Source: Actinomycetales bacterium (lineage in GTDB: Bacteria > Actinomycetota > Actinomycetes > Nanopelagicales > Nanopelagicaceae). From it: a stretch of DNA of 37,995 nt. Positions 7,007 to 30,087 of the stretch are shown piece by piece; the first letter of the stretch is position 1; every line of letters begins with the position of its first letter. Location: NCBI GenBank assembly GCA_018969355.1, contig JAGWYO010000015.1, positions 1 to 37,995 on the forward strand, in the 5' to 3' direction. The notes under the pieces are model-generated. The model made no database searches. It was not told where the DNA came from and was given only the letters and a program-made list of their open reading frames with translations. The position numbers were made by a program, and so were the translations under genes.

Positions 7007-7015
7007 AAGTAGGCT
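6987..7015 (+). promoter_or_regulatory. Promoter with leaderless spacing before cmk-der
   Basis: TAGGCT (7010-7015) lies six bases before the ATG at 7022, and TTCACC (6987-6992) sits 17 bases further upstream as a partial minus-35. The element overlaps the end of tyrA, so cmk-der can be transcribed independently of aroH-tyrA. Confidence 0.5.
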
Positions 7016-7021
7016 CATTAC

Positions 7022-8977
7022 ATGGGAATAGTCGTAGCAATCGATGGTCCCAGTGGCGCAGGTAAATCCACTACATCTAAAGCCATTGCTATTCGCGCTG
7101 GATGGAACTACTTAGATACGGGAGCCCTTTATCGTGCCGTAACTTGGGTTGCCTTGGAAAATGGCTGCGTCGAAGCAGATGCAATTCTAAAAGCATTAAA
7201 AGATGCACCCATCAGATTTGTTTCTGACCCCCATTCACCGGATGTATTTGCAGGAGAAATGAAGATTACTCACGCAATCCGTGGAACTTCAATAACAGAA
7301 AATGTCAGCCGGATAAGTGCTATGCCGCAGATTCGAGAAGAACTTCTTTCGATTCAGCGGAAAATTATTTCGCAAGCTCCACGAGGCATAGTTGTTGAAG
7401 GACGAGATATTGGAACAGTTGTAGTTCCAGACGCTCCACTGAAGATATATCTAACAGCTGATTTAGAAGCACGCGCTTATCGACGCGAAAATGAAACAGA
7501 AGATAGATCTGTTGATGTGAAGAGTTCGCTGGAAAACCGCGATTCCATTGACTCTACGCGCACGGTTTCACCTCTTGCTATGGCTTTTGATGCAGTCGAA
7601 GTTGATTCAACTAATTTAGATTTAGATGAAACAGTGGAGCGAATCTGGGAACTACTTCGCCAGCGCTCACTTTTGGGATTACCCATCGTTGCGATTTTAG
7701 GTCGACCTAACGTGGGAAAATCAACACTAATCAACAGATTTTTAGGACGGCGGGAGGCGATTGTCGAGGACACACCTGGTGTGACACGCGATCGTGTTCA
7801 ATATGAGTGCGAGTGGGGTGGGCGGCGCTTCATCCTTATGGATACCGGGGGTTGGGAAGCTAAACCTGATGGTATTTCAGTTCAAGTAAGTGCTGGTGCA
7901 GAGATTGCAATGCAGGAGGCTGATGTACTTGCATTCATCGTTGATGCACAAGTAGGTGCGTTAGATGAAGATGATGTTCTGGTTGCACATTTGCGCAAAG
8001 CGAAGAAACCTCTGATTTTGATTGGTAACAAAGTTGATGGAGAGCGTGAAGAATCAGAAGCCCATAGTTTGTGGTCCTTAGGACTAGGTGAACCATATTT
8101 TGTTTCAGCACTTCATGGTCGCGGTTCAGGAGATTTACTTGATCACATTGTTGCAGAGCTACCTGAAGTTGGGGGAGCGCAAACCCACGATGGTTATCGC
8201 AAAGTTGCTCTCATAGGTCGACCCAATGTTGGGAAGTCATCTCTGCTCAACGCTTTAGCTGGAGAAAACAGATCCATCGTTGATGATGTTGCAGGAACAA
8301 CGAGAGATCCAGTAGATGAGTTAATTGAATTTGGTGGATCGATCTGGAGATTTATCGATACTGCAGGTTTGAAGAAGCGAGCCAACCAAGCATCCGGTAC
8401 TGATTACTACGCATCCCTTCGCACACAGACAGCGTTAGAACGTTGTGAGGTCGCAGTTATTGTGTTGGATGCATCAGAGCCAATAACTGAGCAGGATTTA
8501 CGAGTCATCACCATGGTAGAAGAGGCTGGAAAAGCCATGGTTATCGTGATGAATAAGTGGGACCTGGTCGATGAAGATCGCCGGGATCAGTTGGATCGGG
8601 AAATCGATAGGCACCTGAATCAAGTTGAATGGGCGCAGCGCGTAAACGTGGCAGCCAAAACTGGTTGGCACCGTGATCGATTAGCGCCCGCCCTTCGCAC
8701 AGCACTCGATAGTTGGGAAAGGCGTGTTCCAACAGCCAAGCTCAATTCATTCTTGGGGGCACTCATCGGTGCAACGCCACCTCCAGTTCGAGGCGGCAAG
8801 CAGCCTAAGGTCTACTACGCCACCCAGGCTGGCATCGCGCCTCCCAAGTTCGTAGTCTTTTCAAATGGCTGGATTGAGGCTTCTTATCGACGATTCATTG
8901 AACGCAGATTGCGTGAGGAGTTCTCCTTTCCTGGCACTCCAGTGCAAGTAGCAATCAGGGTGAAAGAGCGAGAGTAA
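7022..8977 (+). CDS. cmk-der: Bifunctional cytidylate kinase / ribosome assembly GTPase Der
   Basis: One uninterrupted 651-residue frame joins two enzymes. Residues 1-215 are cytidylate kinase (P-loop GPSGAGKS 9-16, GRDIG 127-131), which phosphorylates CMP and dCMP. Residues 220-651 are the double GTPase Der/EngA, which helps assemble the 50S subunit: G1 motifs GRPNVGKS at 227-234 and 399-406, DTGG 274-277 and DTAG 446-449, NKVD 336-339 and NKWD 511-514, then a C-terminal KH-like domain. Mycobacteria keep the two genes adjacent but separate; fused forms are known in other actinobacteria. The linker is only a few residues (about LGLPIV). Confidence 0.96.
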
Positions 8978-8980
8978 GCA

Positions 8981-9553
8981 ATGGATTCATCGCTTGCATC
9001 AATTCCTAACGCGTTAACTTTCCTGCGCTTTTTAGGTATCCCACTCTTTGTTTACTTGACTCTTTTTATTGAGGCCGATGCTTGGGCGATTGTAGTTTTG
9101 GCTATCGGGGGAGCCACTGATTACTTTGATGGCAAGTTAGCTAGAGCCTGGAATCAAACTTCTCGCTTTGGAGAGTTAGCCGATCCAGCTATTGATCGCC
9201 TCTATATCTTGACGATTCTGATTGTCTTTTTAATCCGCGACATTGTTCCGGCATGGATAATCCTCTTACTCATTGCCCGCGATCTAGCTTTAGGTCTAAT
9301 AACACTGATGATGAAATCTCAAGGCCTGGCACCTTTCACGGTGACCTATTTAGGCAAGGCGGCAACCTTCAACCTCATGTATGCCTTCCCATTTTTACTC
9401 TTGGCAAAAAGTGAGACACCTCTCGGCACTATTGCCTTTGTTCTGGGGTGGAGTTTTGCCATTTGGGGCATTGCCCTCTACATTGCTACAGGTATAAGTT
9501 ATGGACGCGAAGGCTTTTCGCAGATGAGAGGAACACGTGTCATCAATTCCTGA
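8981..9553 (+). CDS. CDP-alcohol phosphatidyltransferase, membrane phospholipid synthesis
   Basis: Integral membrane enzyme that transfers a phosphatidyl group from CDP-diacylglycerol to an alcohol. The 190-residue protein has the complete family motif D47-x2-D50-G51-x2-A54-R55-x8-G64-x3-D68-x3-D72, and several hydrophobic helices. The size fits phosphatidylglycerophosphate synthase or a related cardiolipin-synthase-type enzyme; the acceptor cannot be decided. The gene starts three bases after cmk-der and overlaps the gcvH start by 17 bases, so it is probably co-transcribed with both neighbours although functionally unrelated. Confidence 0.88.
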   Translation: MDSSLASIPNALTFLRFLGIPLFVYLTLFIEADAWAIVVLAIGGATDYFDGKLARAWNQTSRFGELADPAIDRLYILTILIVFLIRDIVPAWIILLLIARDLALGLITLMMKSQGLAPFTVTYLGKAATFNLMYAFPFLLLAKSETPLGTIAFVLGWSFAIWGIALYIATGISYGREGFSQMRGTRVINS

Positions 9554-9911
9554 AGGTTTGCACTATACAAAAGAGCATGAGTGGGTAAGTTCAACTGGAA
9601 ATCTCTACACAATGGGAATTACTGATTTCGCACAGGCTGCACTCGGTGACATTGTCTATGTTCAACTTCCTAAAGTTGGCGAAACGCTCACTGCGGGCAA
9701 GGTGTGCGGTGAAATTGAATCTACAAAATCTGTTTCTGAGATATTTGCAGCTGTTAGCGGTGTTGTCAGTGAAATCAATGGCTCACTTTCGCAAACCCCA
9801 GAACTAGTCAACAGCGATCCTTATGGCGCTGGATGGTTGGTAAAGGTTGAGGTTGCAGCAGCTCCATCCGACCTGCTCGATGCCGCCAGCTACGCCCACA
9901 TTACGGCTTGA
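9537..9911 (+). CDS. gcvH: Glycine cleavage system H protein
   Basis: Lipoyl-bearing shuttle protein of the glycine cleavage complex; carries the aminomethyl group from GcvP to GcvT. The 124-residue protein shows the biotinyl/lipoyl fold, with GEIESTKSVSEI containing the lipoylated lysine K64. The start is GTG at 9537 with GAGAGGA upstream, inside the end of the preceding gene. gcvP lies four genes downstream at 12337; gcvT and the lipoamide dehydrogenase gene are not in this window. Confidence 0.96.
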   Translation: MSSIPEGLHYTKEHEWVSSTGNLYTMGITDFAQAALGDIVYVQLPKVGETLTAGKVCGEIESTKSVSEIFAAVSGVVSEINGSLSQTPELVNSDPYGAGWLVKVEVAAAPSDLLDAASYAHITA

Positions 9912-9936
9912 CCAAAGCCTCTCACCCCTTTAGTGT
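9908..9936 (+). promoter_or_regulatory. Promoter of the garA-like gene
   Basis: TTGACC (9908-9913, five of six consensus bases) and TAGTGT (9931-9936) are separated by 17 bases. Transcription would start near 9943, leaving a leader of about 29 bases with the strong AAGGAGGAG ribosome site before the GTG at 9972. The minus-35 overlaps the gcvH stop codon. Confidence 0.6.
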
Positions 9937-9971
9937 CAGCCTCAGGTTGACGGTGAAGGAGGAGAGATAAA

Positions 9972-10421
9972 GTGAAGCCAGAACAAAGGCCCAGCGAACT
10001 CACCACCACGTTGCACCTAGGTCTTCGCACAGCCAGTGATTCCCCAGCTGGGGCTCTAGATGAGTTTCTAGCCACAGTTGCAGCCGCAGATCGCAGCATT
10101 ATCGAAGAAATCGCACAGTCGTCAGAAAAAGCTATGTTGATTATCAATCGAGGATCTAATCTTGGTTCTAGATTTTTAGTCACTGCACAAGGTGCAAGCA
10201 TTGGTCGCTCATCTGACAGTGATGTTTTCTTAGATGATGTAACAGTCTCAAGGTCTCACGCAAGGATTGAAAGTACTTCTTCAGGGTTTTCACTCACAGA
10301 CAGTGGTTCGTTAAATGGCACCTATGTCAACAACTCTTCAGTAACAGAACACGCACTACATTCCGGGGATCAGATTCAAATTGGCAAGTTCCATCTGCTT
10401 TTTGTTTCTGGCAAAAAATAA
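9972..10421 (+). CDS. garA: FHA-domain regulator, GarA/OdhI-like
   Basis: Forkhead-associated protein. In mycobacteria and corynebacteria the homologue binds and restrains 2-oxoglutarate dehydrogenase and glutamate dehydrogenase until Ser/Thr kinases phosphorylate its N-terminus. The 149-residue protein has FHA landmarks GRSSDSD (78-84), SRSHAR (93-98) and SLNGTYVN (113-120). The N-terminal threonine cluster ELTTT (9-13) sits where the family has its phosphorylated ETTS-type motif, so regulation by a PknB/PknG-type kinase is plausible but not shown. GTG start with AAGGAGGAG upstream. The position between gcvH and two MerR genes matches Rv1827. Confidence 0.85.
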   Translation: MKPEQRPSELTTTLHLGLRTASDSPAGALDEFLATVAAADRSIIEEIAQSSEKAMLIINRGSNLGSRFLVTAQGASIGRSSDSDVFLDDVTVSRSHARIESTSSGFSLTDSGSLNGTYVNNSSVTEHALHSGDQIQIGKFHLLFVSGKK

Positions 10422-10437
10422 TTAGGGGAGAATTACA

Positions 10438-11163
10438 ATGGCAGTTCCAGCTCGCGCGTATCTGAGCATTGGTGAAGTACTCAATAGACTTCGCCCAGAT
10501 TTTGCAGATATAACAATTTCTAAGATTCGCTTCCTTGAATCTGAAGGTTTGATTGAGCCGCAGCGAACTCCATCGGGTTACCGCAAGTTCACAACTTCTG
10601 ATTTAGAGCGTCTGCGCTATGTATTACTTGCCCAGCGCGATCAGTACCTGCCACTTAAAGTTATTAAAGATAATTTAGATGCAATCGATCGCGGCCTAGT
10701 TCCAGCAGCAACTGGTTCAGTTCCAGCACCGCGTGCAACTCTTGGCCTGGCAACAATTGATGGCGAAATGGCACCCAGCACATTTGGTGAAGTATCAGAG
10801 ATGCGATTGTCGCGCGGTGAGCTTTTGAAAAACTCAGGTTTGAAAGAGGATCAACTTGTTGAATTAGAAGGCTATGGCCTTATCGCAATTCGTGGTCGTC
10901 ACTACGATGGGGATGCGCTAGCTATCGCAAAGGCTGTTACAGAGATGGCAGGTTTTGGAATTGAAGCACGCCATTTGAGATCATTTAAATCAGCAGCAGA
11001 TCGCGAGATTGGATTGATTGAACAAGTCACCACTCCACTGACTCGCCAAAAGGGTGCCGACTCAAAGGCCCGTGCTGAAGAAGTTCAAAAGGAGATCGCA
11101 TCTCTTTCTATTCGTCTGCATGCAGCACTTGTTCGCGGCGGGCTTCATCGCCTTCGTTCATAG
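10438..11163 (+). CDS. ftsR: MerR-family regulator, FtsR-like
   Basis: The 241-residue protein has an N-terminal MerR winged helix (about 8-75, LSIGEVLNRL and RFLESEGLIEPQRTPSGYRKF read in part) and a C-terminal region with a second helical domain. Context (garA before it, a BFN-domain gene after it) matches Rv1828 and corynebacterial FtsR, a regulator of the division gene ftsZ; that role is carried over by orthology. A clear AGGGGAG ribosome site precedes the ATG. No metal-binding cysteines are seen in the C-terminus, in line with a non-metal MerR protein. Confidence 0.85.
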   Translation: MAVPARAYLSIGEVLNRLRPDFADITISKIRFLESEGLIEPQRTPSGYRKFTTSDLERLRYVLLAQRDQYLPLKVIKDNLDAIDRGLVPAATGSVPAPRATLGLATIDGEMAPSTFGEVSEMRLSRGELLKNSGLKEDQLVELEGYGLIAIRGRHYDGDALAIAKAVTEMAGFGIEARHLRSFKSAADREIGLIEQVTTPLTRQKGADSKARAEEVQKEIASLSIRLHAALVRGGLHRLRS

Positions 11164-11166
11164 TCA

Positions 11167-11661
11167 ATGATGATTTCCATGGAGGTCATCGGCGTTCGAG
11201 TCGAAATGCCTTCCAATCAGCCCATCGTCTTACTCAAAGAAATTGATGGTTCACGCTTTTTGCCGATTTGGGTAGGCGCTGTTGAAGCCACGGCTATCGC
11301 CTTTGCCCAACAAGGGGTTCAACCACCAAGACCGCTGACCCACGATTTAACTCAGAACATCGTTGAACAACTCGATGCAACTCTGACTGCAGTTCACGTG
11401 ACCCACATTGACGAGGGGGTCTTCTATGCCACCCTCATTGTCAGAGATAGATCTGAAACTACCCACACCATCTCGGCCAGGCCTTCAGATGCCATTGCAT
11501 TAGCCCTTCGGGCCTCCGCCAACATTTTGGCTAGCTCAGAACTACTCGATGAAATTGGAATTGAGATCCCATCAGAGGCAGCGCCAGGGGATGAGAACCA
11601 GGAAGTTGAACGCTTTAGAGAGTTCCTGGATCAGATCAACCCTGAGGATTTTGCCGGGTAG
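11167..11661 (+). CDS. BFN-domain (DUF151) bifunctional-nuclease family protein
   Basis: 164 residues of the DUF151/BFN family, named after a plant nuclease and including mycobacterial Rv1829. The core EVIGVRVEMP-NQPIVLLKE, LPIWVGAVEATAIAFAQQG and the SARPSDAIALALR segment are typical. A short acidic C-terminal tail follows. It starts three bases after the ftsR stop, with ATG at 11167, 11170 or 11179 and no clear ribosome site, so coupling to ftsR is likely. Nuclease activity in bacteria is poorly established; the role is uncertain. Confidence 0.87.
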   Translation: MMISMEVIGVRVEMPSNQPIVLLKEIDGSRFLPIWVGAVEATAIAFAQQGVQPPRPLTHDLTQNIVEQLDATLTAVHVTHIDEGVFYATLIVRDRSETTHTISARPSDAIALALRASANILASSELLDEIGIEIPSEAAPGDENQEVERFREFLDQINPEDFAG

Positions 11662-11708
11662 GGGCTTAAACCCTCAATCTCAAGTAGAGGTTTCGACCGT
11701 GTCGGTCA

Positions 11709-11737
11709 TTGAAGGTGGGGCCTTGCTGCCCTAGATT
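11709..11737 (+). promoter_or_regulatory. Possible promoter of the second MerR gene
   Basis: TTGAAG (11709-11714) and TAGATT (11732-11737) are spaced by 17 bases in the 108-base gap between the BFN gene and the MerR gene at 11770. Transcription would start near 11744, leaving a leader of about 26 bases containing AAGAGAAACGAG as a weak ribosome site. Nothing else was recognised in the gap. Confidence 0.4.
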
Positions 11738-11769
11738 TACATCACTCCCCAAGAGAAACGAGTTTCCCC

Positions 11770-12270
11770 GTGACTTCCCAGGAACTAGAAATTGGCTACC
11801 GTGGCGCTACAGCATGCTCTGCGGCTGGTATTACATATCGCCAGTTAGATTATTGGGCACGGACGGCTTTAGTTGAGCCAAGCATTAGAACTGCAAGTGG
11901 CTCTGGAACTCAACGCCTGTATGGGTTTAGAGACATTCTTGTTTTAAAAATTGTTAAGCGCTTATTAGATGCTGGCGTATCACTTCAAAACATTCGCACC
12001 GCTGTTGATCACCTGCGCAGCAGGGGAGTTACCGAGTTAGAGAGCATGACGTTAATGAGTGATGGTGCATCTATCTATGAGTGCGCCAGCCCCGATGAGA
12101 TCATCGACTTGCTGGCAGGTGGCCAAGGAGTCTTTGGCATCGCTGTTGGAAAAGTTTGGCACGAAGTTGAGGGTTCTCTCTCATTGTTGCAAGGTGAGGT
12201 CAGCGCTCAAAGCCTGGGTGTTGAATCTAACGATGAACTCTCCCTTCGCCGAAAGAGCAAAGGCGCATAA
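11770..12270 (+). CDS. MerR-family regulator, Rv1830-like
   Basis: A second MerR-type winged-helix protein, 166 residues. The DNA-binding domain (about 14-85) reads AAGITYRQLDYWARTALVEPS, shown in part, and ends with RLYGFRDILVLKIVKRLLDAGVSLQ. The C-terminal region is short and lacks cysteines. GTG start at 11770 without a strong ribosome site. The gene sits directly before gcvP exactly as Rv1830 precedes gcvB in mycobacteria, so control of gcvP or of the cluster is an attractive but unproven idea. Confidence 0.85.
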   Translation: MTSQELEIGYRGATACSAAGITYRQLDYWARTALVEPSIRTASGSGTQRLYGFRDILVLKIVKRLLDAGVSLQNIRTAVDHLRSRGVTELESMTLMSDGASIYECASPDEIIDLLAGGQGVFGIAVGKVWHEVEGSLSLLQGEVSAQSLGVESNDELSLRRKSKGA

Positions 12271-12285
12271 AAAGACATATTCTTA

Positions 12286-12321
12286 ACTCATACGGGCCAA
12301 TGATGGCCTGTTTGTATGAGT
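12286..12321 (+). promoter_or_regulatory. Stem-loop directly upstream of the gcvP ribosome site
   Basis: ACTCATAC (12286-12293) pairs perfectly with GTATGAGT (12314-12321). Inside, GGGCCA (12294-12299) pairs with TGGCCT (12304-12309, one G-U), leaving an ATGA loop and a four-base bulge. The total is 14 base pairs. No T tract follows, so it is not a classical terminator. AGGGG, the likely gcvP ribosome site, begins two bases after the right arm. TATTCT at 12278-12283 is a possible minus-10. It may be an RNA control element or a DNA operator. Confidence 0.5.
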
Positions 12322-12336
12322 AGGGGTTCTTTCTCC

Positions 12337-15198
12337 ATGATTGACTACGACGCATTTTCACGTCGCCACATCGGTCCTTCAGAGGATCAAGCACAAACTA
12401 TGTTGATGGAACTTGGTTATTCCTCCATGGCAGATTTTATCGCAGATGTTGTTCCTCACAATATTGCAATGACTCAGCGGTTAAGTCAGACATTACCTAC
12501 GGCGCTCAATGAAGTTGATGTCATCGCAGAGCTACGAGCACTGGCAGATAAAAATGATGTCTATCGCAACGTGATTGGTACCGGCTATTACGGGACCATT
12601 ACTCCGCCAGTTATTTTGCGCAATGTTTTGGAAAACCCAGCCTGGTACACCGCTTACACACCTTACCAACCAGAGATTTCGCAAGGTCGCTTAGAGGCGC
12701 TATTTGCTTTTCAAACCGCAGTCTGTGATTTAACAGCGTTATCAATTGCAAATGCCTCCATGCTAGATGAAGGCACAGCTGCAGCAGAGGCTATGACCTT
12801 AGCCCGTCGTGTTTTTAAGGGTAGCGATGATGCAGTCTTTTTGATTGATATCAATGTTCATCCTCAAACCATCGCAGTGGTGCAAACTCGCGCTAAGCCA
12901 CAGGGCATCACTGTTGAAGTTCTTGATCTCTCAAAGAATCCTTCAAATAACGAGGTTTTTGGAGTTCTTGTGCAGTATCCAAATACACGTGGTGAAATTA
13001 TTGATTACAGTGAACTTGCAACCTGGGTACATTCAAAAGAAGCTTTGTTAATTGCTGCAACAGATCTACTTGCACTCACACTCTTAAAAGCACCAGGGGA
13101 GTGGGGGGCAGATATTGCAGTGGGATCAGCTCAGCGCTTTGGAGTACCGATGGGATTTGGTGGTCCGCACGCTGGTTTCATGTCAGTGCGCGAAGGTCTG
13201 GAGCGCTCACTTCCTGGACGTTTAATTGGTCAAAGTGTTGACGCCCATGGCAACCCCGCATTTCGCCTAGCTCTGCAAACGCGGGAGCAACATATTCGCC
13301 GTGACAAGGCAACAAGCAATATCTGCACCGCTCAAGTTCTGCTGGCTGTCATGAGTGCCTTCTATGCAATGTGGCATGGACCAGCAGGTTTAAAGATAAT
13401 CGCCACCAGAGTTAATCGACAAGCACAGGAACTTGCCAGTTCTGTAACAGCTTCTGGTCACAGAGTTGTTCACTCAAACTATTTCGACACATTAGTAATT
13501 GAAGTTAAGGATGCAGCAGAATTTCACAACAGAGCTGATGCCAAGAAGATTAACCTCAAGAGAATTGATGCAACCCATGTGGGGGTTTCACTCGATGAAA
13601 CTACGGATGCAAAGATGCTCAAAGATTTATGCGAGGTCTTCGGCGATGGGGCAGTAGGGGCTGCCGGCAAATCGATTCCGGATTCAGCGGTGCGCTCATC
13701 AACCTACCTTCGTCACCCAATCTTTAACACCATGCGCTCTGAAACATCAATGCTTCGCTATTTGCGCACACTCTCTGATCGCGATTTAGCCCTTGATCGC
13801 ACAATGATTCCTCTAGGTTCATGCACAATGAAACTCAATGCCACAACTGAGATGCAAGCAGTTACCTGGCCAGAGTTTTCATCACTGCACCCATTTGCAC
13901 CAGCTAGACAAAATGCGGGCTCTCGCGAACTTATTGAGCAACTCTCTGATTGGCTTATCAAAATCACCGGTTATGACGCAGTTTCACTACAACCAAATGC
14001 TGGAAGCCAAGGGGAGTTCGCCGGTTTATTGGCTATCCGCAACTATCACGATTCACGTGGTGATCAGGGCCGGACAATTTGTTTGATTCCATCCTCTGCC
14101 CACGGAACTAACGCTGCAAGTGCCGTAATGGCTGGAATGCAGGTAGTGGTTATTGAGTGCGATGATCATGGAAACGTCAGCATTGATGATTTGAAGGCGA
14201 AAATAGTTCAATATTCAACCTCTTTAGCGGCCATGATGGTTACATACCCATCCACCCATGGTGTTTTTGAGTCATCTATTACAGATCTGTGTGGACTTGT
14301 ACACGATGCTGGTGGACAGGTTTATGTGGATGGTGCAAATTTGAATGCGCTAGTTGGCTTAGCGCAACCTGGAAAATTCGGTGCAGATGTTTCTCACTTG
14401 AATTTACATAAGACATTTTGTATTCCACATGGTGGTGGGGGACCAGGAGTTGGCCCAGTTATCTGTCGATCACATTTAGCGCCATTTCTACCAAATCATC
14501 CATTAGATGAGTTAGCAGGACCTGCAACTGGACCTGGACCAATTAGCGCTGCGCCATTTGGTTCTGCAAGCATTTTGCCGATTTCTTGGGCTTACATCCG
14601 CATGATGGGTGGGGAAGGCCTCACACTTGCAACATCAGTGGCAATCTTGTCCGCCAACTACATGGCAGCAAAGTTAAATCCAATGTTCCCAGTTCTCTAT
14701 ACAGGAGAACATGGACGCGTTGGCCATGAATGTATTTTGGATTTACGTGAAATCACCAAGGTAAGTGGAGTGAGCGTTGATGACATCGCAAAGCGATTAA
14801 TGGATTATGGATTTCATGCACCGACAATGAGCTTTCCTGTGGCAGGCACATTGATGATTGAGCCAACTGAAAGTGAAGACATCGCAGAGATTGATCGCTT
14901 TATTGCGGCAATGACTGCCATTTACGGTGAAATCCAAGAAATCATGGAGGGCAATATCTCGGTGGAGGAGTCAGCTCTGCGCCATGCGCCACACACCATT
15001 GAAAGCGTTCTTTCACCCAATTGGGATCGTGTGTATCCACGTGAAATGGGCGGGCTTCCAACGGTGCGCAATGGTCTTGTGAGCGGAGAAATCATCGGTA
15101 TGCAGGGCAAATACTGGCCGACAGTGGGACGTATCGATGGCGCGCACGGGGATAGGAACCTCATCTGCTCGTGCCCACCCATATCTGAATTCGCCTAA
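12337..15198 (+). CDS. gcvP: Glycine dehydrogenase (decarboxylating), P protein
   Basis: PLP enzyme that decarboxylates glycine and loads the aminomethyl group on GcvH. The 953-residue protein is the fused alpha-beta form (N- and C-terminal halves in one chain), normal for actinobacteria. FSRRHIGPS opens the protein and the PLP lysine lies in [18 protein letters not shown] at residue 692. The ATG at 12337 has AGGGG ten bases upstream; an ATG at 12316 would add seven residues but lies inside the stem-loop arm. Folate-carrier partners gcvT and lpd must be elsewhere. Confidence 0.96.
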
Positions 15199-21803: not shown

Positions 21804-22733
21804 CTAGGCAGGTGAGTGAGCCTGATAACGATCAAGTATCAGTTGGGCCTTTTGGGCTATTTCCCGGGCTAAATCGCTCGGTTCAAGGAGAACTGCACTT
21901 GCCGATGAGGCAAAAATACTGCGAATGATCCATTGCCGAGAGAAGGCTTGAATCGCAATTCTTTGATTTAGCGGCGCATTTTCAAGCCCGAATCTCTCCT
22001 TCATCAACCTAGCTCGAGAATAGATGCAGATTTGGGACGTAAAGCCCTGATCCATTAATACAGGTTGACTCTTTACCGCTTTAAGTCGATCAGCTTTGAT
22101 TGTGAGTTTTTGGATTCTATCTAAACGGAAAACCCTAAAGGCAGATGCGTCAAGACAGTACGCGAAAAGATATTCAACTCCATTATCTATGCGCAATTCT
22201 AATGGAGTAATTTCTCGTTCTGAAACACTATCGTTATAAAGGGAATGATAGGTAATCTTTAAGTTCTCTTGCTTGAGCAAACTGCTTTCAATGTCACTAC
22301 GAATAGTACTTGCTACAGGATTGGTAGCGCGAAATCGTGCTCCTACTCCAGCTTTTTGGCTCAAACGCTGAGATAGTTTGGCAACGCTGTTGAGTATTTC
22401 CGAATTGTTTGGTGAGGACTCACGCACAAGATCTAATCCAAGTAGCAGAGAGATAATCTCTTCTTTGCTAAGTGTGCGCGGAGATTTAAGAGTTGGGGCA
22501 TTGCGAATACTCACAAAGCCTGATTCGAAAGAGAGATCCATGAGTTCGAGGGCGGTATAGCCAGGTAAACCACACATCCATAATGTAGTTAAATCGGCGA
22601 TAATCTGCGTAGTTGTGACATTGAATACTTGTGCTAGATTCTTTACAGTTATTCCTTGATGAGCACTGATATATGGAACTAGGGCTAGTAAACGTTCGGT
22701 GTGGATGATGGGTGCAGGTTTAGCGTGAGGCAT
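21804..22733 (-). CDS. pafC: WYL-domain transcriptional regulator PafC
   Basis: Partner of PafB in the DNA-damage activator PafBC of actinobacteria. The 309-residue protein has an N-terminal helix-turn-helix region (about 10-60), a WCX/WYL region with ITYHSLYND-SEREITPLELR (WYL strand pattern degenerate) and a C-terminal WCX extension. ATG at 22733 overlaps the pafB stop by 14 bases; TTG at 22745 would add four residues. Kept together with pafB although the proteasome genes that usually share the locus are missing here. Confidence 0.88.
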   Translation of the reverse strand: MPHAKPAPIIHTERLLALVPYISAHQGITVKNLAQVFNVTTTQIIADLTTLWMCGLPGYTALELMDLSFESGFVSIRNAPTLKSPRTLSKEEIISLLLGLDLVRESSPNNSEILNSVAKLSQRLSQKAGVGARFRATNPVASTIRSDIESSLLKQENLKITYHSLYNDSVSEREITPLELRIDNGVEYLFAYCLDASAFRVFRLDRIQKLTIKADRLKAVKSQPVLMDQGFTSQICIYSRARLMKERFGLENAPLNQRIAIQAFSRQWIIRSIFASSASAVLLEPSDLAREIAQKAQLILDRYQAHSPA

Positions 22734-23667
22734 GGTTGACCGCAATTGTGCTGAGAATATTTACTATGGCATCACGTAAATGAGTTGGTCCAATGACCAC
22801 CACATCGTCCAAATGCCACAAAAGAGAGTCCAGAAAAGAAGTCTCATCAACATAGTGGAGTGTGATTTGATCCCACTCCCCTTTCTCGCATATCGAGAGA
22901 GCTCTCTTCCTTAAAGCTAAAGCCTTGTCTTTGCGAACGTCCAATGTTGCTATTGTGGATCCAATCGCATCTTCACCTTGTGAGAAGAGGTCAAAACCTT
23001 CCGGTATTTCAAACTCTGCACTCTTTTTTCCTACACTAATTTCACCTTCTACTCGATCCAGGCGAAAAGTGCGGATAGCCTCTTTTCCCAAATCTAAACC
23101 CGCAAAATACCAATGTCCCTCACGCGAAGCCAACGCATAGGGATAGATAGAGCGTTTCTGATTCTGCAAATCCTGTGAGCGATAAGTGAAAGTGATGGGT
23201 GACTTCGTTGAAATGGCTTGCACCACATTAACCAACTCATCATTTGCAACCACCATCCTGGGAGCTAACATTGGAATGGAGTCAATATCTGAATTGATTC
23301 CAATTGATTGAAGTTTCACTAGGGCTGAATGCGCAACTGAGTTGAAGGCTTGGCCATTCCAAGCGCGTGCGGCCACAGAAAGTAGGGCGATATCGCTACT
23401 AGATAATTCACCCAGATCTAGTGCATAGCTCTCTGGTTTAATGCGATATCCAGCTTCGTCATTGAAGATCGGATCGAAACCACCCACTTCAATCTCTATG
23501 CCCAATGAGCGTAGATCATCTTTGTCGCGCTCAAACATCCGTTCTTTTGATTCGTCACTACCTTCGTATCCTTCGATGCTTCGAAAGATTTCATTCTTTG
23601 TCAGGTAGCGCCGAGTCGCTAGCAGCGCAATTGTTAAATTTACTAAGCGCTCACTCTTCCGCGACAC
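22720..23667 (-). CDS. pafB: WYL-domain transcriptional regulator PafB
   Basis: First half of the PafBC activator controlling the LexA-independent mycobacterial DNA-damage response. The 315-residue protein starts MSRKSERLVNLTIALLATRR, matching the family N-terminus; the helix-turn-helix is at about 15-60 and the WYL domain reads PITFTYRS-YALASREGHWYFAGLD in two parts. I chose GTG at 23667 with AAAGG eight bases upstream, which overlaps the end of trmI by 17 bases; a longer frame to 23760 only reads antisense-like trmI sequence in another frame. Translation coupling to trmI is likely. Confidence 0.9.
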   Translation of the reverse strand: MSRKSERLVNLTIALLATRRYLTKNEIFRSIEGYEGSDESKERMFERDKDDLRSLGIEIEVGGFDPIFNDEAGYRIKPESYALDLGELSSSDIALLSVAARAWNGQAFNSVAHSALVKLQSIGINSDIDSIPMLAPRMVVANDELVNVVQAISTKSPITFTYRSQDLQNQKRSIYPYALASREGHWYFAGLDLGKEAIRTFRLDRVEGEISVGKKSAEFEIPEGFDLFSQGEDAIGSTIATLDVRKDKALALRKRALSICEKGEWDQITLHYVDETSFLDSLLWHLDDVVVIGPTHLRDAIVNILSTIAVNHASR

Positions 23668-24502
23668 CGTATGCACCTTTAGATGGTCTGCGACGACGAG
23701 GTAAAACTTCAACACCGGGTGCCATTCGGCGGCTGTGAATGAGAAATCCTGTGTGACCAATCATTCTCTGCTGCGGGCGAACGGCCAAGCCTTCATGATG
23801 CCATCCCCGAACTAATGTCTCACTACTTTCTGGCTCTGTAAATCGACCATCCTCTTTGATAGCTTGCGCTGTTGCTGATAATTGGGTGGTTGTTGCAACA
23901 TAGGCCATAAAAACACCACCTGGACGTAGAGCTTTAGCTGCAAGATCAACACACTCCCACGGGGCTAACATGTCCAAAATAACTCGATCGAATTCACTAT
24001 TAAAGCTTTGATCTTGTAAATCACCGACATCGAGGCGCCAATTACTCGGCCCACCTTCAAAGTAAGCATCGACATTTGAGCGCGCATTTTCAGCAAAATC
24101 AGCACGGCGTTCAATTGAATGCACGTAGCCTTTTTCACCTGCAGCACGTAAGAGGGAGATTGTCAGCGCACCGCTTCCAACACCAGCTTCGAGCACTCGT
24201 GCACCTGGATAGATATCGGCCACAGCAACAATCATCGCTGCATCTTTGGGATAAACAATCGTTGCTCCGCGTGGCATTGTTAATACGTAGTCAGCAAGTA
24301 ATGGCTTAAAAGCCGTGAACTTTAATCCGGCAGTGGTGCTCACGACCGAGCCTTCGGGTATGCCGATGAGGTCATCGTGGGTAATCCAGCCTTTGTGGGT
24401 GTGCCACTCCTTACCGGCGATAATGGTGAAGCTGTAGAGCTTGCCTTTGGCATCGGTGAGTTGAATGCGATCACCCGCTGCAAAGAAACCTTGATTCGAC
24501 AC
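23651..24502 (-). CDS. trmI: tRNA (adenine-58-N1)-methyltransferase TrmI
   Basis: SAM-dependent enzyme that makes m1A58 in the T-loop of tRNAs. The 283-residue protein has an N-terminal beta domain, the SAM motif VLEAGVGSGALT, the acidic IERR and VGDLQD positions, and the catalytic LDMLAPWE segment with the conserved aspartate. GTG at 24502 is chosen because TAAGAT lies exactly six bases upstream. A basic tail RRRRPSKG ends the protein. In mycobacteria and Streptomyces this gene flanks the proteasome cluster; here it runs straight into pafB. Confidence 0.94.
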   Translation of the reverse strand: MSNQGFFAAGDRIQLTDAKGKLYSFTIIAGKEWHTHKGWITHDDLIGIPEGSVVSTTAGLKFTAFKPLLADYVLTMPRGATIVYPKDAAMIVAVADIYPGARVLEAGVGSGALTISLLRAAGEKGYVHSIERRADFAENARSNVDAYFEGGPSNWRLDVGDLQDQSFNSEFDRVILDMLAPWECVDLAAKALRPGGVFMAYVATTTQLSATAQAIKEDGRFTEPESSETLVRGWHHEGLAVRPQQRMIGHTGFLIHSRRMAPGVEVLPRRRRPSKGAYGVAEE

Positions 24503-25315: not shown

Positions 25316-25983
25316 ATCATGGCATGAAAGTCAATATAGAGCTCTTGCATTTTCTTAAAGCTCATCTGTTTGAGTGATTGAATGACGCGCACCCTTGCAG
25401 ATTCCTCCACTTGAACTAAATGTGGCACAGCGATTAACCACGCGCCACTACTTGTGGCAGCGCCAACACCAGTCAACGAGTCCTCGAATATGAGACATTG
25501 AGAAATCTCAGCATCTGCCAGATCAGCTGCCTTAAGATATGCATCAGGGTATGGTTTGGTACGTTCGACATCATCGCTTGAAATTGAAAATGGAAAAAGA
25601 TCCTGACCCACATTCTCCAGAACTGCATCTACGATAATTCTTGGACTGGCAGAGACTAATCCGGTCTTAATACCATTGCTTTGTAACTCCTTAACAAGCT
25701 CATAAGCACCTGGCATAAATGGTGTATGTGATCGCATCTTCTCAGATTGCACTTGAATGAGAGTGCGTGTGAAAAACTCTGGGGTCTGGACCTTTTCGCA
25801 CTTGTCATGCAAATATTGGCCAACCCTAGTTAATGGTCCACCTAAACAGGCTATCTGATCCTCTATCTGCCAGTGATAACCATATGTTGCGGCAATTTCA
25901 CTCTCAGATTTGAGCCATTGCGGTTCAGAATCAACGAGCAAGCCATCCATGTCGAAGAAGACTGCATCAAAAAATGTATTCAC
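25312..25983 (-). CDS. HAD-superfamily hydrolase, beta-phosphoglucomutase-like subgroup
   Basis: Phosphatase or phosphomutase of the HAD family, 223 residues. Motif I is FDMDGLLVDSE, motif II the SAS serine, motif III the lysine in RTKPYPDAY, motif IV FEDSLTGVGAA. A helical cap lies between motifs I and II. The substrate is unknown; a sugar phosphate or nucleotide is usual. GTG at 25983 has GAGGAG upstream; the frame extends further but without family resemblance. The final four bases overlap the RecB-like gene tail to tail. Confidence 0.88.
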   Translation of the reverse strand: MNTFFDAVFFDMDGLLVDSEPQWLKSESEIAATYGYHWQIEDQIACLGGPLTRVGQYLHDKCEKVQTPEFFTRTLIQVQSEKMRSHTPFMPGAYELVKELQSNGIKTGLVSASPRIIVDAVLENVGQDLFPFSISSDDVERTKPYPDAYLKAADLADAEISQCLIFEDSLTGVGAATSSGAWLIAVPHLVQVEESARVRVIQSLKQMSFKKMQELYIDFHAMI

Positions 25984-26030
25984 CCGTCTCCTCAGAGATT
26001 CATATGTAGCACAAGTGCAGAAGGTTACCC

Positions 26031-26036
26031 TAAGGT
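26031..26036 (+). promoter_or_regulatory. Possible minus-10 element of the PAC2 gene
   Basis: TAAGGT ends eight bases before the ATG at 26045. The spacing is slightly longer than the six or seven seen elsewhere in the window. TAAGG could also act as a weak ribosome site if transcription starts further upstream. Confidence 0.35.
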
Positions 26037-26044
26037 GTAGTCCC

Positions 26045-26908
26045 ATGGAGATACATCACATCCCTGCTCTGCGAAATCCAATAATGGTGATGGCCTTTTC
26101 TGGATGGAATGATGCAGGTGCGGCAGCCACAGGTGCTGTTGAGCATCTTCTTTCGGCCTGGCACAATCAAGCTGATGATGTTGTGCCGCAACTTATTGCA
26201 GATATTGAATCAGAGGATTTTTATGATTTTCAGGTTAATCGTCCTCACATATATGTTGACGAATCAAAGATCCGAAATATTTCTTGGCCAACAACGCAAA
26301 TATTTGGGCTGGCGCTGCCGGAATACAGTCGCGACTTAGTAATTGTTAAAGGCACAGAGCCCTCTATGCGTTGGAAGAGTTTCACGCGCGAGCTTCTAGA
26401 TTTAGCTGATGATTTAGAGGTTTCTCTGATTATTGCGTTGGGCTCCATGTTGGCTGATGTACCCCACTCACGCCCTATTACTGTTAGCGGAAGTAGTACT
26501 CATCCAGATCTGGCAGCGCGTTTAGGAATGGAAGTTTCACGCTATGAAGGTCCCACCGGAATACTGGGCATCATCAGCGATGGCTGCATGCGACGTGGAA
26601 TTGATGCGCTCTCTTTGTGGGCAGCCATTCCACATTATGCCTCCAGCTCTCCCTCTCCAAAAGCCACGCTGTCCTTGGTCAACTCACTAGAAGACTATTT
26701 GGATATATCAATTCCACTTGCGGATCTTTCTGAAGCTGCCGATGAGTGGGAGAGGGATGTGACAGAGATGGCTAAAGAAGATAGCGATGTTGCTGAGTAT
26801 GTAAAAGCTTTAGAGGATACAAAAGATGCAGCAGAATTGCCTGATGTTTCTGGAGATACTATTGCTAAAGAGTTTGAAAGATACTTACGACGCAGGTCTA
26901 AAGATTAA
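26045..26908 (+). CDS. PAC2-family protein
   Basis: 287 residues of the PAC2 family, related in fold to eukaryotic proteasome-assembly chaperone 2 and nucleoside phosphorylases (Rv2125 in mycobacteria). It begins IPALRNPIMVMAFSGWNDAGAAAT, shown in part, includes LALGSMLADVPHSRP-like sequence near the middle, and ends with an acidic helical tail. The bacterial function is unknown. In actinobacteria it lies near mshC, as here. ATG at 26045 matches the family N-terminus; earlier in-frame codons overlap the divergent HAD gene. The stop is shared with mshC. Confidence 0.88.
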   Translation: MEIHHIPALRNPIMVMAFSGWNDAGAAATGAVEHLLSAWHNQADDVVPQLIADIESEDFYDFQVNRPHIYVDESKIRNISWPTTQIFGLALPEYSRDLVIVKGTEPSMRWKSFTRELLDLADDLEVSLIIALGSMLADVPHSRPITVSGSSTHPDLAARLGMEVSRYEGPTGILGIISDGCMRRGIDALSLWAAIPHYASSSPSPKATLSLVNSLEDYLDISIPLADLSEAADEWERDVTEMAKEDSDVAEYVKALEDTKDAAELPDVSGDTIAKEFERYLRRRSKD

Positions 26909-28146
26909 AGGGCTAATCCAAGCAGGCAATCCAGAGCAGCGGATAGTTCATTTGCATCTCCCCCACTGACCCCATCCATAGTCTGTGCAGCCCATCGATC
27001 TAAAGCAGACAATGCAGTTGGAGTATCTAAATCATCGCTGAGTGCATGAATGAGTTTTTCTATGACGGAATCAGTTGGTGCCACAACAGGGGCCGATAGG
27101 GCTGTGCGAATATTACCCAGACGCGCAGTAGCCTGAGTCAGTAGTTCGTCAGTCCACATTCGATCAATTCGATAATGCTGTGACATCAAAGCAAAGCGAA
27201 TAGCCATAGGGTCTGCGCCAGATTGAATGAGTTTTGAAACAAAGACCAGATTGCCTTTACTCTTGCTCATTTTTTCTCCATCTAACCCAATCATTGCTGT
27301 GTGAACATACATCGCTGCAAGATCTTTGCCGGTAAGCACCTGCGCTTGAGAAGCACACATCTCATGATGAGGAAAAATTAGATCACTTCCACCACCTTGA
27401 ATGTCGATGCAAGTATGCTGCGAATTAACTGGCTCTAGATATTTCAAAGCGATTGCTGTGCACTCAATGTGCCACCCTGGTCGTCCCACACCATGAACCG
27501 ATGGCCAGCCTGGTTCATCATCACGCTTTGCCATCCACACCAAGCAATCGAGTGGATCAATTTTTCCAGGCAACGTTGGGTTTCCTCCGCGCTGAGAGAA
27601 AATTTCTTTCATCTGCTCTTTATCAAGATGTGAAAGAGAACCAAAATCTGGCGAAGAGTAGTTCTTAAAGAAAAGATCTTTCTCGATGGTATAGATGGCT
27701 CCTGCGGCTTGAAGTGAAGTCACAGCCTGGCTGACGAGATCAATCGACTCAACTGCTCCGATGTAATGATCAGGGGCAAGTACGCGCAAATTCATCATAT
27801 CCGCTCGGAAGAGATCTATTTGAGATAAGGCTAAATCCTCCCAATTGACATTATCTCTAGCAGCCCGCTCAAGAAGTGGATCATCAATGTCGGTGATATT
27901 TTGAACGTAGAGAACTGTAGAACCAGTAGCTCGTAAATAACGATTGATGAGATCAAATGTTAAGTAGGTGGCTGCATGGCCTAGATGTGTCGCATCATAT
28001 GGAGTGATTCCACAGACATACATTCGATATGTCTGCTTCTTGAGCATTAGCTCTTTATTAAGTGTTTTAGAGTTTGTTAGAGAGAGTTGTGGAATCTTGT
28101 GGGATTTATTCAGTTGTGGGATTGCGACCGAAGTCCAAGAGTTCAT
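26905..28146 (-). CDS. mshC: Mycothiol ligase: L-cysteine:GlcN-Ins ligase
   Basis: Joins cysteine to glucosaminyl-inositol in an ATP-dependent step of mycothiol synthesis. The 413-residue protein is a cysteinyl-tRNA synthetase relative: MYVCGITPYDATHLGHA (42-58) contains zinc ligand C45 and the HIGH-like site, C229 lies in HIECTAIA, and KMSKS is at 292-296. GITPYDATHLGHA and the short length distinguish MshC from CysRS, which is longer and reads GPTVYD. TAGAAT six bases upstream fixes ATG at 28146. Mycothiol is restricted to actinobacteria. Confidence 0.94.
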   Translation of the reverse strand: MNSWTSVAIPQLNKSHKIPQLSLTNSKTLNKELMLKKQTYRMYVCGITPYDATHLGHAATYLTFDLINRYLRATGSTVLYVQNITDIDDPLLERAARDNVNWEDLALSQIDLFRADMMNLRVLAPDHYIGAVESIDLVSQAVTSLQAAGAIYTIEKDLFFKNYSSPDFGSLSHLDKEQMKEIFSQRGGNPTLPGKIDPLDCLVWMAKRDDEPGWPSVHGVGRPGWHIECTAIALKYLEPVNSQHTCIDIQGGGSDLIFPHHEMCASQAQVLTGKDLAAMYVHTAMIGLDGEKMSKSKGNLVFVSKLIQSGADPMAIRFALMSQHYRIDRMWTDELLTQATARLGNIRTALSAPVVAPTDSVIEKLIHALSDDLDTPTALSALDRWAAQTMDGVSGGDANELSAALDCLLGLAL

Positions 28147-28170: not shown

Positions 28171-28875
28171 TTAGAAGGCAGGCCAAGGAATAGCAGGCCA
28201 TTCGGCATTGGGCGAAGGCATAGTCCGGTTTTCTAGCAATCTAACCATACGAGCATGCAACGCCTCGATTTCTCGGTGCGTCAGATGTGGCGATAAGTCG
28301 CACTCTTTCCCCAAAGCATTTTTGAGTACATGCAGCAAATCTACTTCTTGGTCAGTAAGAGGATCGCCAGCCCATTGCCAGAGAACTGTTCGAAGTTTGT
28401 CCTCTTCGTGAAAAGTTACCCCGTGATCACAGCCATAGAGATGACCTTCTGTGTCAGGTAATAGATGACCAATTTTTCGATCAGTGTTATTGATAATGGC
28501 ATCAAAGAATGCCATAGCCCTCAGTTGTGGAAGATCTCGAGAAAAGTAGTCAGCTAAATCTATGGACTCATCGATATCAATCCACTCTTGCACCATACCC
28601 ATTCCATATGGACCTTCGCGCAGAATCGTTAATGGCACTAAATCCAAACCAAGATAATCACTCACCAGAAAAGCTGCATATTCACGATCAGCTAACGTGC
28701 CATCCGGGAAATCCCATAATGGGCGTTCGCCTGCAACAGGTTTATATATACATGCAATCTGATCGGACCCATAACCAACTGTTGCAAAGAGAGTTGCATT
28801 AGATGCATCAACTAATCGCCCAGTTACAGATATCTGACCTTGTGTCAGAATTGAGCGCTTATCGCCTGTAGCCAT
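28171..28875 (-). CDS. SCO1664-family protein with PI3K/PI4K-like kinase fold
   Basis: 234 residues of an actinobacterial family with resemblance to phosphatidylinositol 3/4-kinases. Kinase landmarks are visible: a lysine in IYKP (42-46, K45), NNTDRKIGHLL (129-139) resembling the catalytic loop with D132, and CDHGVTF (149-155) in place of DFG with D150. WQWAGDPL lies C-terminal. The substrate is unknown. ATG at 28875 overlaps the end of the DUF3090 gene by 17 bases; the longer frame only reads through that gene. The conserved link to a DUF3090 gene, a phosphomutase and mshC suggests one shared process. Confidence 0.85.
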   Translation of the reverse strand: MATGDKRSILTQGQISVTGRLVDASNATLFATVGYGSDQIACIYKPVAGERPLWDFPDGTLADREYAAFLVSDYLGLDLVPLTILREGPYGMGMVQEWIDIDESIDLADYFSRDLPQLRAMAFFDAIINNTDRKIGHLLPDTEGHLYGCDHGVTFHEEDKLRTVLWQWAGDPLTDQEVDLLHVLKNALGKECDLSPHLTHREIEALHARMVRLLENRTMPSPNAEWPAIPWPAF

Positions 28876-29368
28876 TTGCCCTAGGACATAAATGACCACG
28901 GGGATCAATAGGGATTGCACAAAATGGGCAAGGAATTCGACCAGCATTGACAACTGCATGAGTTCGTGAGATGAAAGCTTTAGCCTGTCGAAAAGTAATA
29001 TTCAAAGAGATTTCAGGAGTATCATCTTCAATGTCGACTTCTTTGATTGAGTAAAGTTCAACACACACTTTCTTAGCCTCATTCTTCCAAGCAACAGATA
29101 GTGCTCCAATAACAAACTCCCTATCTACGGGCATTTCAAGTGGAGCATCATCGCTCTCGAGACGATCAATTATCAACGTAGGATCTTGTTTGACTACCTC
29201 TTTACAGAGAATATCTAGTCTTTGCGCCAATGCCGCGGCTTGGGCTTTTTCTAGGGATGCACTTACTATTGTCGACCCTGAGCGGACCTGAAGGTAGAAC
29301 TCGCGCTCACCTGGTTCACCTACTGTTCCACAGATAAAACGGTCGACGTTTTCAAACTCAAAAATCAT
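28859..29368 (-). CDS. DUF3090-family protein with C-terminal zinc-like motif
   Basis: 169 residues, function unknown. The N-terminus has the repeated beta pattern of the family (FICGTVGEPGEREFYLQV, in part), and the end carries C147-x2-C150, H159 and C161 in CPFC-x8-HLCPR, which could hold a zinc ion, finishing with NGYRR. ATG overlaps the phosphomutase stop as ATGA and its own end overlaps the kinase-like gene, so the three are translationally linked. The family is confined to actinobacteria as far as I know. Confidence 0.87.
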   Translation of the reverse strand: MIFEFENVDRFICGTVGEPGEREFYLQVRSGSTIVSASLEKAQAAALAQRLDILCKEVVKQDPTLIIDRLESDDAPLEMPVDREFVIGALSVAWKNEAKKVCVELYSIKEVDIEDDTPEISLNITFRQAKAFISRTHAVVNAGRIPCPFCAIPIDPRGHLCPRANGYRR

Positions 29369-30036
29369 TTTCCCGACCCACCACCTAATAAGTTTTTTAC
29401 ACGTTTAGGAGATGAGAGTGCCTCATGTACGTTGGAACGAGTGTCATTGAGCAAAGTTAACCGGGCTTGGTTCTGTGAGTAATCTAAAATAGTCACAGAT
29501 GCGGGATCTATCACAATGCGTTGGAAATCATCCAAATGCATACCAAGGGCATTGGCGACAATCGCCTTGATGACATCCCCATGGGTTACTAGTACTGCAA
29601 CACCTGTTCTTTTTGAATTGAGAATATCGTGCACCGCTTGCATAGCCCGCTGTTGCATATGCGCTAAACCCTCACCGTGAGGGAAATACATCGCTGAGGG
29701 GGTATTTTGAACCGTTTTCCACAATCTGTGGCGTGAGAGAACCGTTAGTTTTTTGCCGCTCCAACTGCCGTAATCAACCTCGGTAAGATTCTCATCTGTC
29801 ATTAAGAGTTTTTGACTAGCTTTTGGCAAAGTCAGGAGCCAGGGAGCGATTGTTTCGTGGCATCTTTGCATAGGACTTATGCGTATGTGCACAAGGGGAA
29901 ATGAACCTAACCTGGCAGATAACTCCTGGGATTGCTTAACTCCCTTTTCAGAGAGTGGAACATCGGGCAAACGTCCCGACAATACGCCTCGAGCATTCGC
30001 TTGCGAATGGGCATGTCTAATCAAAACGATCTGCAT
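29365..30036 (-). CDS. Histidine phosphatase / phosphoglycerate-mutase-like protein
   Basis: 223 residues of the histidine phosphatase superfamily (MSMEG_4193/Rv2135c type). RHAHS near the N-terminus supplies the phospho-histidine H8, RISPMQRC gives the conserved arginine region, and VTHGDVIKAIVA the second histidine. I chose ATG at 30036 because TAGCCT lies seven bases upstream and the RHG motif is normally near residue 8; GTG at 30084 would add 16 residues. The substrate is unknown; proteins of this type may be acid phosphatases rather than mutases. Confidence 0.88.
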   Translation of the reverse strand: MQIVLIRHAHSQANARGVLSGRLPDVPLSEKGVKQSQELSARLGSFPLVHIRISPMQRCHETIAPWLLTLPKASQKLLMTDENLTEVDYGSWSGKKLTVLSRHRLWKTVQNTPSAMYFPHGEGLAHMQQRAMQAVHDILNSKRTGVAVLVTHGDVIKAIVANALGMHLDDFQRIVIDPASVTILDYSQNQARLTLLNDTRSNVHEALSSPKRVKNLLGGGSGK

Positions 30037-30081: not shown

Positions 30082-30087
30082 CACTCC

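Follow-up and report, generated by a model that had tools for sequence, protein, structure and literature searches.

The window analysed here, a stretch of 37,995 nucleotides from a draft genome of 1.40 Mb in 83 contigs, carries on its minus strand three overlapping genes followed by mshC. The first gene of the trio (29365-30036, ATG start) encodes a branch 1 histidine phosphatase matching PF00300 (2.8e-43) and TIGR03848 (221.1 bits); an alternative GTG start at 30084 would add 16 residues. The second (28859-29368) encodes a DUF3090 protein (PF11290, 1.4e-48; TIGR03847, 179 bits) and the third (28171-28875) a kinase of the TIGR03843, or SCO1664, family (299.7 bits). Their neighbour on the same strand, mshC (26905-28146), encodes the mycothiol cysteine ligase (TIGR03447, 532.7 bits). 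All three trio proteins score above the curated NCBIfam cut-offs (203.9 bits for TIGR03848, 117 for TIGR03847 and 172 for TIGR03843, with 485 for TIGR03447), and their genes are adjacent, in the usual order and on the usual strand. The phosphatase and DUF3090 genes overlap by 4 nt (29365-29368), the DUF3090 and kinase genes by 17 nt (28859-28875), and 24 nt separate the kinase stop from the mshC start; the preliminary description of this DNA had these distances exactly right. Purifying selection on all three trio genes is strong, with pN of 0.10–0.13 against pS of 0.65–0.78 among freshwater relatives. The nearest relatives of the DUF3090 protein are found in freshwater actinobacteria such as SCGC AAA044-N04. 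Neither an RNA element nor a strong promoter was detected when sought for the trio.

The phosphatase has its catalytic R7 and H8 in an RHA motif (30013-30018, minus strand) present in 100% of 64 homologues. R58, E86 and H152 are likewise invariant in this set, which together with the PF00300 match places the protein in branch 1 of the histidine phosphatase superfamily. Its family is named 'MSMEG_4193 family putative phosphomutase' (TIGR03848), and the term 'phosphomutase-like' used in the preliminary description is correct as a family name only. As an activity it finds no support in the M. tuberculosis orthologue, Rv2135c, an acid phosphatase of weak activity without phosphoglycerate mutase activity (PMC3866925). 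Rv2135c is inactive on G6P, 3PGA and ADP and weakly hydrolyses F6P, PEP and glycerol-1-P, with a millimolar Km for every substrate tried; it was detected in membrane fractions, and its model shows a large hydrophobic pocket (PMC3866925).

In the DUF3090 protein, the four residues of a C147-x2-C150-x8-H159-x-C161 motif (28886-28930, minus strand) are invariant in 63 homologues, as are G17, G20, R22, K41, G143 and R144. The conserved residues include the ligands expected of a metal site, so that DUF3090 is probably a zinc protein; its 'CxxC..HxC' has been noted before as putatively metal-binding (PMC9425974). The AF2 model (pLDDT 88.6, with lower values for the C-terminal tail) shows a domain made of two β-β-β-β-α units followed by the putative metal-binding motif. 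The top eight Foldseek matches of this model are all Pur-alpha (probability 0.75–0.93, E 0.016–0.1, TM 0.37–0.50), and no Pfam link between DUF3090 and PUR was found. Aligned with hhalign, the two halves scored 20.0 across 47 columns, in the same register as in the model, and unrelated profiles reached up to 19.4 (14 columns). An internal duplication is therefore not claimed, the repeat score not standing above unrelated controls. On the evidence of the model, the domain is possibly PUR-like.

The kinase retains its ATP-binding residues and every catalytic residue. K45 (YKP; 28741-28743), the predicted ATP-anchoring lysine, D132 (NTDRK; 28480-28482), the predicted catalytic aspartate, matched in the alignment to the NTDR loop of PI4KII, and D150 (DHG, the DFG equivalent; 28426-28428), which aligns with the DNG of PI4KII alpha, are all encoded on the minus strand and are invariant in 61 homologues. 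S25-N26, E65, D125, N130, R133-K134, H137, R162-T163, W166 and P230-W231-P232 are among the other invariant positions. The AlphaFold model (AF2) is confident (pLDDT 94.9), and its top Foldseek matches are PI4KII alpha and beta (4hne, alpha: E 4.9e-8, TM 0.64), with CtkA and HipA coming later. By sequence, PI4KII beta (1e-4) and FAM20A (2e-4) lead the matches of the kinase profile, and NTDR, D-x-G, KP and VP-x-T are common to the kinase and its PI4KII and FAM20 matches. Of the 61 homologues, 51 match PF00454 at E≤0.01 (best 9.7e-14), four match HipA_2 and one Fam20C; the window kinase itself scores 18.9 bits, under the PF00454 gathering score of 27.1, and is not assigned to that family by its score alone. 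With its kinase fold and its catalytic Lys, Asp and D-x-G, it belongs to the PI3/PI4-kinase, or PI4KII-FAM20-HipA, group. H137 stands five residues after D132, where Asn is usual, and the usual chemistry of PI kinases cannot therefore be taken for granted. When 22 genomes were scanned for PF00454, the trio kinase was the only match, in 14 of them. The eight genomes with no match comprise four without the trio (G231, G243, G045, G057) and four whose trio kinase was missed by the profile; other divergent kinases could be missed in the same way, and the trio kinase is the sole PI3/PI4-kinase-like protein at that sensitivity.

Since the landmarks of the three proteins are invariant or nearly so in 61–64 homologues, they are not due to chance. 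Those singled out in the preliminary description (K45, D132 and D150 in CDHG, a histidine phosphatase site and a zinc-like C/H motif) are all present and conserved. Its kinase reading is supported by the retention of the residues predicted to bind ATP.

We examined the distribution of the trio in a sample of 149 Actinomycetota genomes. An identical set of 68 genomes holds DUF3090 and the kinase, and in all 68 the phosphatase gene adjoins that of DUF3090. The kinase gene is next in line, except in G084 and G095, which have it at the beginning of a different contig. An apparent loss of DUF3090 in G155 and G160 proved to be a contig-end artefact. Across the 63 retrieved loci with all three genes, order and strand are constant and no gene fusion was seen, and a 963-nt insert was found in the trio locus L092. 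When neighbouring open reading frames were clustered, the trio was the only element conserved across classes, and mshC appeared in 12 loci only. A scan of genome contigs with a single DUF3090 protein as query reached three loci only. The three proteins had been proposed to form a unit, and their strict order and matched presence bear this out: the families do not occur independently of each other. In the control genome of Corynebacterium glutamicum there is a kinase match and no DUF3090 match, for which reason the phosphatase and the kinase may be the core of the trio. Few uncharacterised gene blocks of Actinomycetota are conserved as faithfully as the trio, which even freshwater genomes of 1.2–1.5 Mb retain.

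Several loci depart from the common arrangement or come from unusual records. Genome G008, which holds a complete trio, also contains a second copy of the phosphatase and kinase genes, which are separated by a few bases and have no DUF3090 gene with them (L041, G008:C17:146000-161000, at 6892-8263). In L100 (G274, at 7152-10341), the kinase gene and mshC share an inversion with respect to the phosphatase and DUF3090 genes. All three families are found on an unverified faecal scaffold deposited as 'Bacteriophage sp.' (L101, MT835969.1, at 8153-12791), probably a bacterial fragment; a viral origin of the trio was rejected, as no relative was found in viral contigs. 'Plasmid 20' of Tsukamurella tyrosinosolvens (L102, NZ_LR134462.1) carries the trio together with mshC, PAC2 and metH, genes of chromosomal type, and is perhaps a chromosome fragment labelled as a plasmid.

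The trio co-occurs with inositol synthesis. Inositol-1-phosphate synthase (Ino1) was found in 65 of the 68 trio genomes versus 42 of the 81 without the trio and, counted by family, in 21/21 trio-bearing families versus 18/28 others (Fisher p 0.003, ancestry not removed). Shared ancestry inflates all the co-occurrence figures given for the trio, here and below. Four trio genomes (G006, G063, G135, G186) gave no Ino1 match. Within the class of the window, a chosen set of 40 genomes showed Ino1 in 31/32 of those with the kinase or DUF3090 versus 2/8 of those with neither. Family f79, made up of six complete genomes (G231, G243, G254, G275, G285, G305), lacks the trio, MshC and Pup, and five of the six lack Ino1. 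Among the trio losses in the class, Ino1 is also missing from G284 and, except for a divergent copy in G254, from f79; G172 keeps it. Inositol synthesis is close to necessary, and not sufficient, for the trio.

We tentatively favour a reading of the trio as a self-contained module for reversible phosphorylation, its substrate being most likely an inositol-containing molecule such as PI or PI3P. As an active member of the PI4KII/FAM20/HipA group of kinases, the TIGR03843 protein would convert phosphatidylinositol to phosphatidylinositol phosphate. The histidine phosphatase would remove the phosphate added by the kinase, returning phosphatidylinositol phosphate to phosphatidylinositol, and might also act on the PIP arising from de novo PI synthesis. 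DUF3090 would have an accessory part in recruitment, sensing or read-out, and mshC stands outside the module. An inositol substrate is proposed because PI4KII is the nearest kin of the kinase, because the trio co-occurs with inositol synthesis, and because the phosphatase orthologue Rv2135c is reported to be associated with membranes and to have a modelled hydrophobic pocket (PMC3866925). Of the inositol-phosphate or inositol-lipid cycle put forward in the preliminary description, the cycle itself remains the best guess, given the PI4KII fold and the presence of Ino1 in every trio-bearing family, and its tie to mycothiol does not hold. Against an inositol lipid, PI4KII-like folds include protein kinases (CtkA and HipA by Foldseek, FAM20 by sequence), Ino1 is common in genomes that lack the trio, and G172 has lost the trio while keeping Ino1.

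According to work attributed to Morii and colleagues, mycobacterial PI is reportedly made via a PI-phosphate that needs a phosphatase; the same work is said to imply that de novo PI3P may derive from PIP synthase and not from a PI kinase, which counts against the kinase step. Rapid turnover of PI3P by a vanadate-sensitive phosphatase is also said to have been seen by Morita in 2010. We know of no gene for either stress-induced mycobacterial PI3P synthesis or the PI-phosphate phosphatase. If the kinase or the phosphatase of the trio acts on PI or PI3P, the trio would offer candidates for both. The stress-induced synthesis of PI3P was described in M. smegmatis (Morita 2010, as cited in PMC6176652).

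A switch directed at protein or RNA is nearly as likely as the inositol module. The kinase would then act like HipA, CtkA or FAM20, the phosphatase would reverse its action, and a PUR-like DUF3090 with its zinc motif would be a nucleic-acid-binding adaptor or effector in a regulatory circuit without lipid. CtkA and HipA are among the next Foldseek matches, FAM20A, FAM20C and FAM20B match the kinase profile by sequence, and Pur-alpha, to which the DUF3090 model is most similar, has a fold that binds single-stranded DNA and RNA. However, PI4KII outranks HipA, CtkA and FAM20, the PUR match is of modest quality (E 0.016, TM 0.37–0.50) with an internal-repeat test not above controls, and the trio has no conserved host protein next to it. 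DUF3090 is not an obvious substrate for the kinase either, because it has no invariant Ser, Thr or Tyr in 63 homologues.

We regard as unlikely a kinase–mutase pair, as the name 'putative phosphomutase' would have it, with a soluble phosphate of a sugar or cyclitol as its substrate. The family names, the weak hydrolysis of F6P, PEP and glycerol-1-P by Rv2135c (PMC3866925) and the distant match of the kinase to FAM20B, a xylose kinase, speak for such a pair; the missing mutase activity and millimolar Km values of Rv2135c (PMC3866925) speak against it, and no sugar-metabolism gene is conserved near the trio. Returning to the inositol module, its most specific form would be an actinobacterial phosphoinositide switch, with a PI kinase, a PI-phosphate phosphatase that perhaps also carries out the last step of PI synthesis, from PIP, and DUF3090 as a zinc-containing, PUR-like effector coupling lipid state to nucleic acid. 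Put together in this way, the scheme appears unlikely.

A role in mycothiol synthesis is improbable. Among the 68 trio genomes, MshC scored over the cut-off in 12, all within the class of the window, leaving 56 without an above-cut-off MshC. Divergent MshC-like proteins occur in 15 further trio genomes, and neither form was found in 41 of the 68. INDEPENDENCE from mycothiol is seen in three single-contig genomes (G171, G241, G252), where the intact trio lies ~550–570 kb from mshC. As mshC remains 15–27 kb from pup in these genomes, it is the trio that has moved, as a block. Linkage to mshC is confined to one class, the gene is not counted in the trio unit, and the trio is independent of MshC both in distribution and in linkage, contrary to the mycothiol link suggested in the preliminary description. 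The rival account would have the phosphatase perform the MshA2 step, the dephosphorylation of GlcNAc-Ins-P, which pathway accounts name without a gene (PMC2628429, PMC9736012), and the trio regulate mycothiol synthesis. The trio does adjoin mshC through most of the class, and both are absent together from f79, G172 and G284. Such joint loss would favour a link, yet it is equally expected from one deletion removing adjacent genes, and the genomes lacking any MshC-like protein together with the separated loci lead us to reject the partnership. The distribution data free the trio from a tentative mycothiol assignment and point to inositol. The divergent MshC-like proteins (~370–446 bits, under the cut-off; G134, G016, G129, G102, G113, G031 and ten others) lie outside the class, unlinked to the trio, and are possibly MshC-related ligases of other function.

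Equally improbable is a trio that serves pupylation as an accessory of the Pup-proteasome. Pup gives the strongest statistical association of all (66/68 trio genomes and 20/21 trio-bearing families, with absence from 77 of the 81 genomes without the trio), but this is confounded by ancestry. Pup lies 20–40 kb from the trio in many genomes of the class, and f79 has neither; outside the class the two are unlinked. Dissociation in both directions weakens the partnership: the trio is kept without Pup in 14/14 genomes of the Nanopelagicaceae, the family of the window (several of them single-contig), and in G152, and Pup is kept without the trio in G172, G284, G045 and G057. In the window, trmI (PF14801) is directly followed by two WYL regulator genes, the second PafC-like, and by those for TatC and a DSHCT helicase (21804-24502). 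Genes of this set are the usual neighbours of the Pup-proteasome cluster, and since the genome lacks Pup, the region looks like a clean excision scar, at which PAC2 (25910-26908) was left behind. An anti-phage defence system was rejected, as no PADLOC model matched the trio and the best match, to the kinase alone, had an E-value of 0.063.

The trio families and their linkage to mshC are already catalogued. We take Rv2133c, Rv2134c and Rv2135c to be the M. tuberculosis counterparts of TIGR03843, TIGR03847 and TIGR03848, respectively, and the TIGRFAM notes presumably describe these families as a three-gene actinobacterial system. In a 2013 review, the kinase (SCO1664) appears among the signature proteins of actinomycetes and is described as 'invariably closely linked' to mshC, with a suggested role in a mycothiol/inositol network (PMC4255298). 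With families and linkage on record (NCBIfam; PMC4255298), the word 'undescribed' in the preliminary description was too strong. In the literature searched, we found no published function for the trio: papers naming DUF3090 or the Rv locus tags give none, and no paper naming TIGR03843, TIGR03847 or TIGR03848 was found. What is new here is the independence from mycothiol, the association with inositol, the tentative PUR-like fold of DUF3090 and, at the sensitivity tested, the standing of the trio kinase as the sole PI-kinase-like protein. The trio of the window adds one more member to a system that is catalogued but functionally dark.

Among known systems, the NCBIfam trio (TIGR03843, TIGR03847 and TIGR03848) is matched by the window without difference, order and overlaps being as elsewhere; this further copy sits in a streamlined freshwater genome without Pup. 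For the kinase, PI4KII alpha and beta offer the closest solved fold, with the NTDR loop, the D-x-G metal site and the KP and VP-x-T motifs of the N-lobe in common, but the trio kinase is minimal (234 aa), has no palmitoylation insert, carries His at D+5 and has an invariant C-terminal PWP of its own. It also shares the N-lobe KPxR...E-A...VPPTV with FAM20, and four of its 61 family members match HipA_2; the resemblance to FAM20, HipA and CtkA is weaker overall than that to PI4KII, and neither a toxin-antitoxin partner nor a secretion signal was seen. With Rv2135c the phosphatase has in common the RHA motif and all the catalytic residues of the histidine phosphatase superfamily. The DUF3090 model resembles Pur-alpha in its two β-β-β-β-α repeats, a likeness that is only suggestive given the E-value of 0.016 at best, the missing Pfam link and the extra C-terminal zinc motif.
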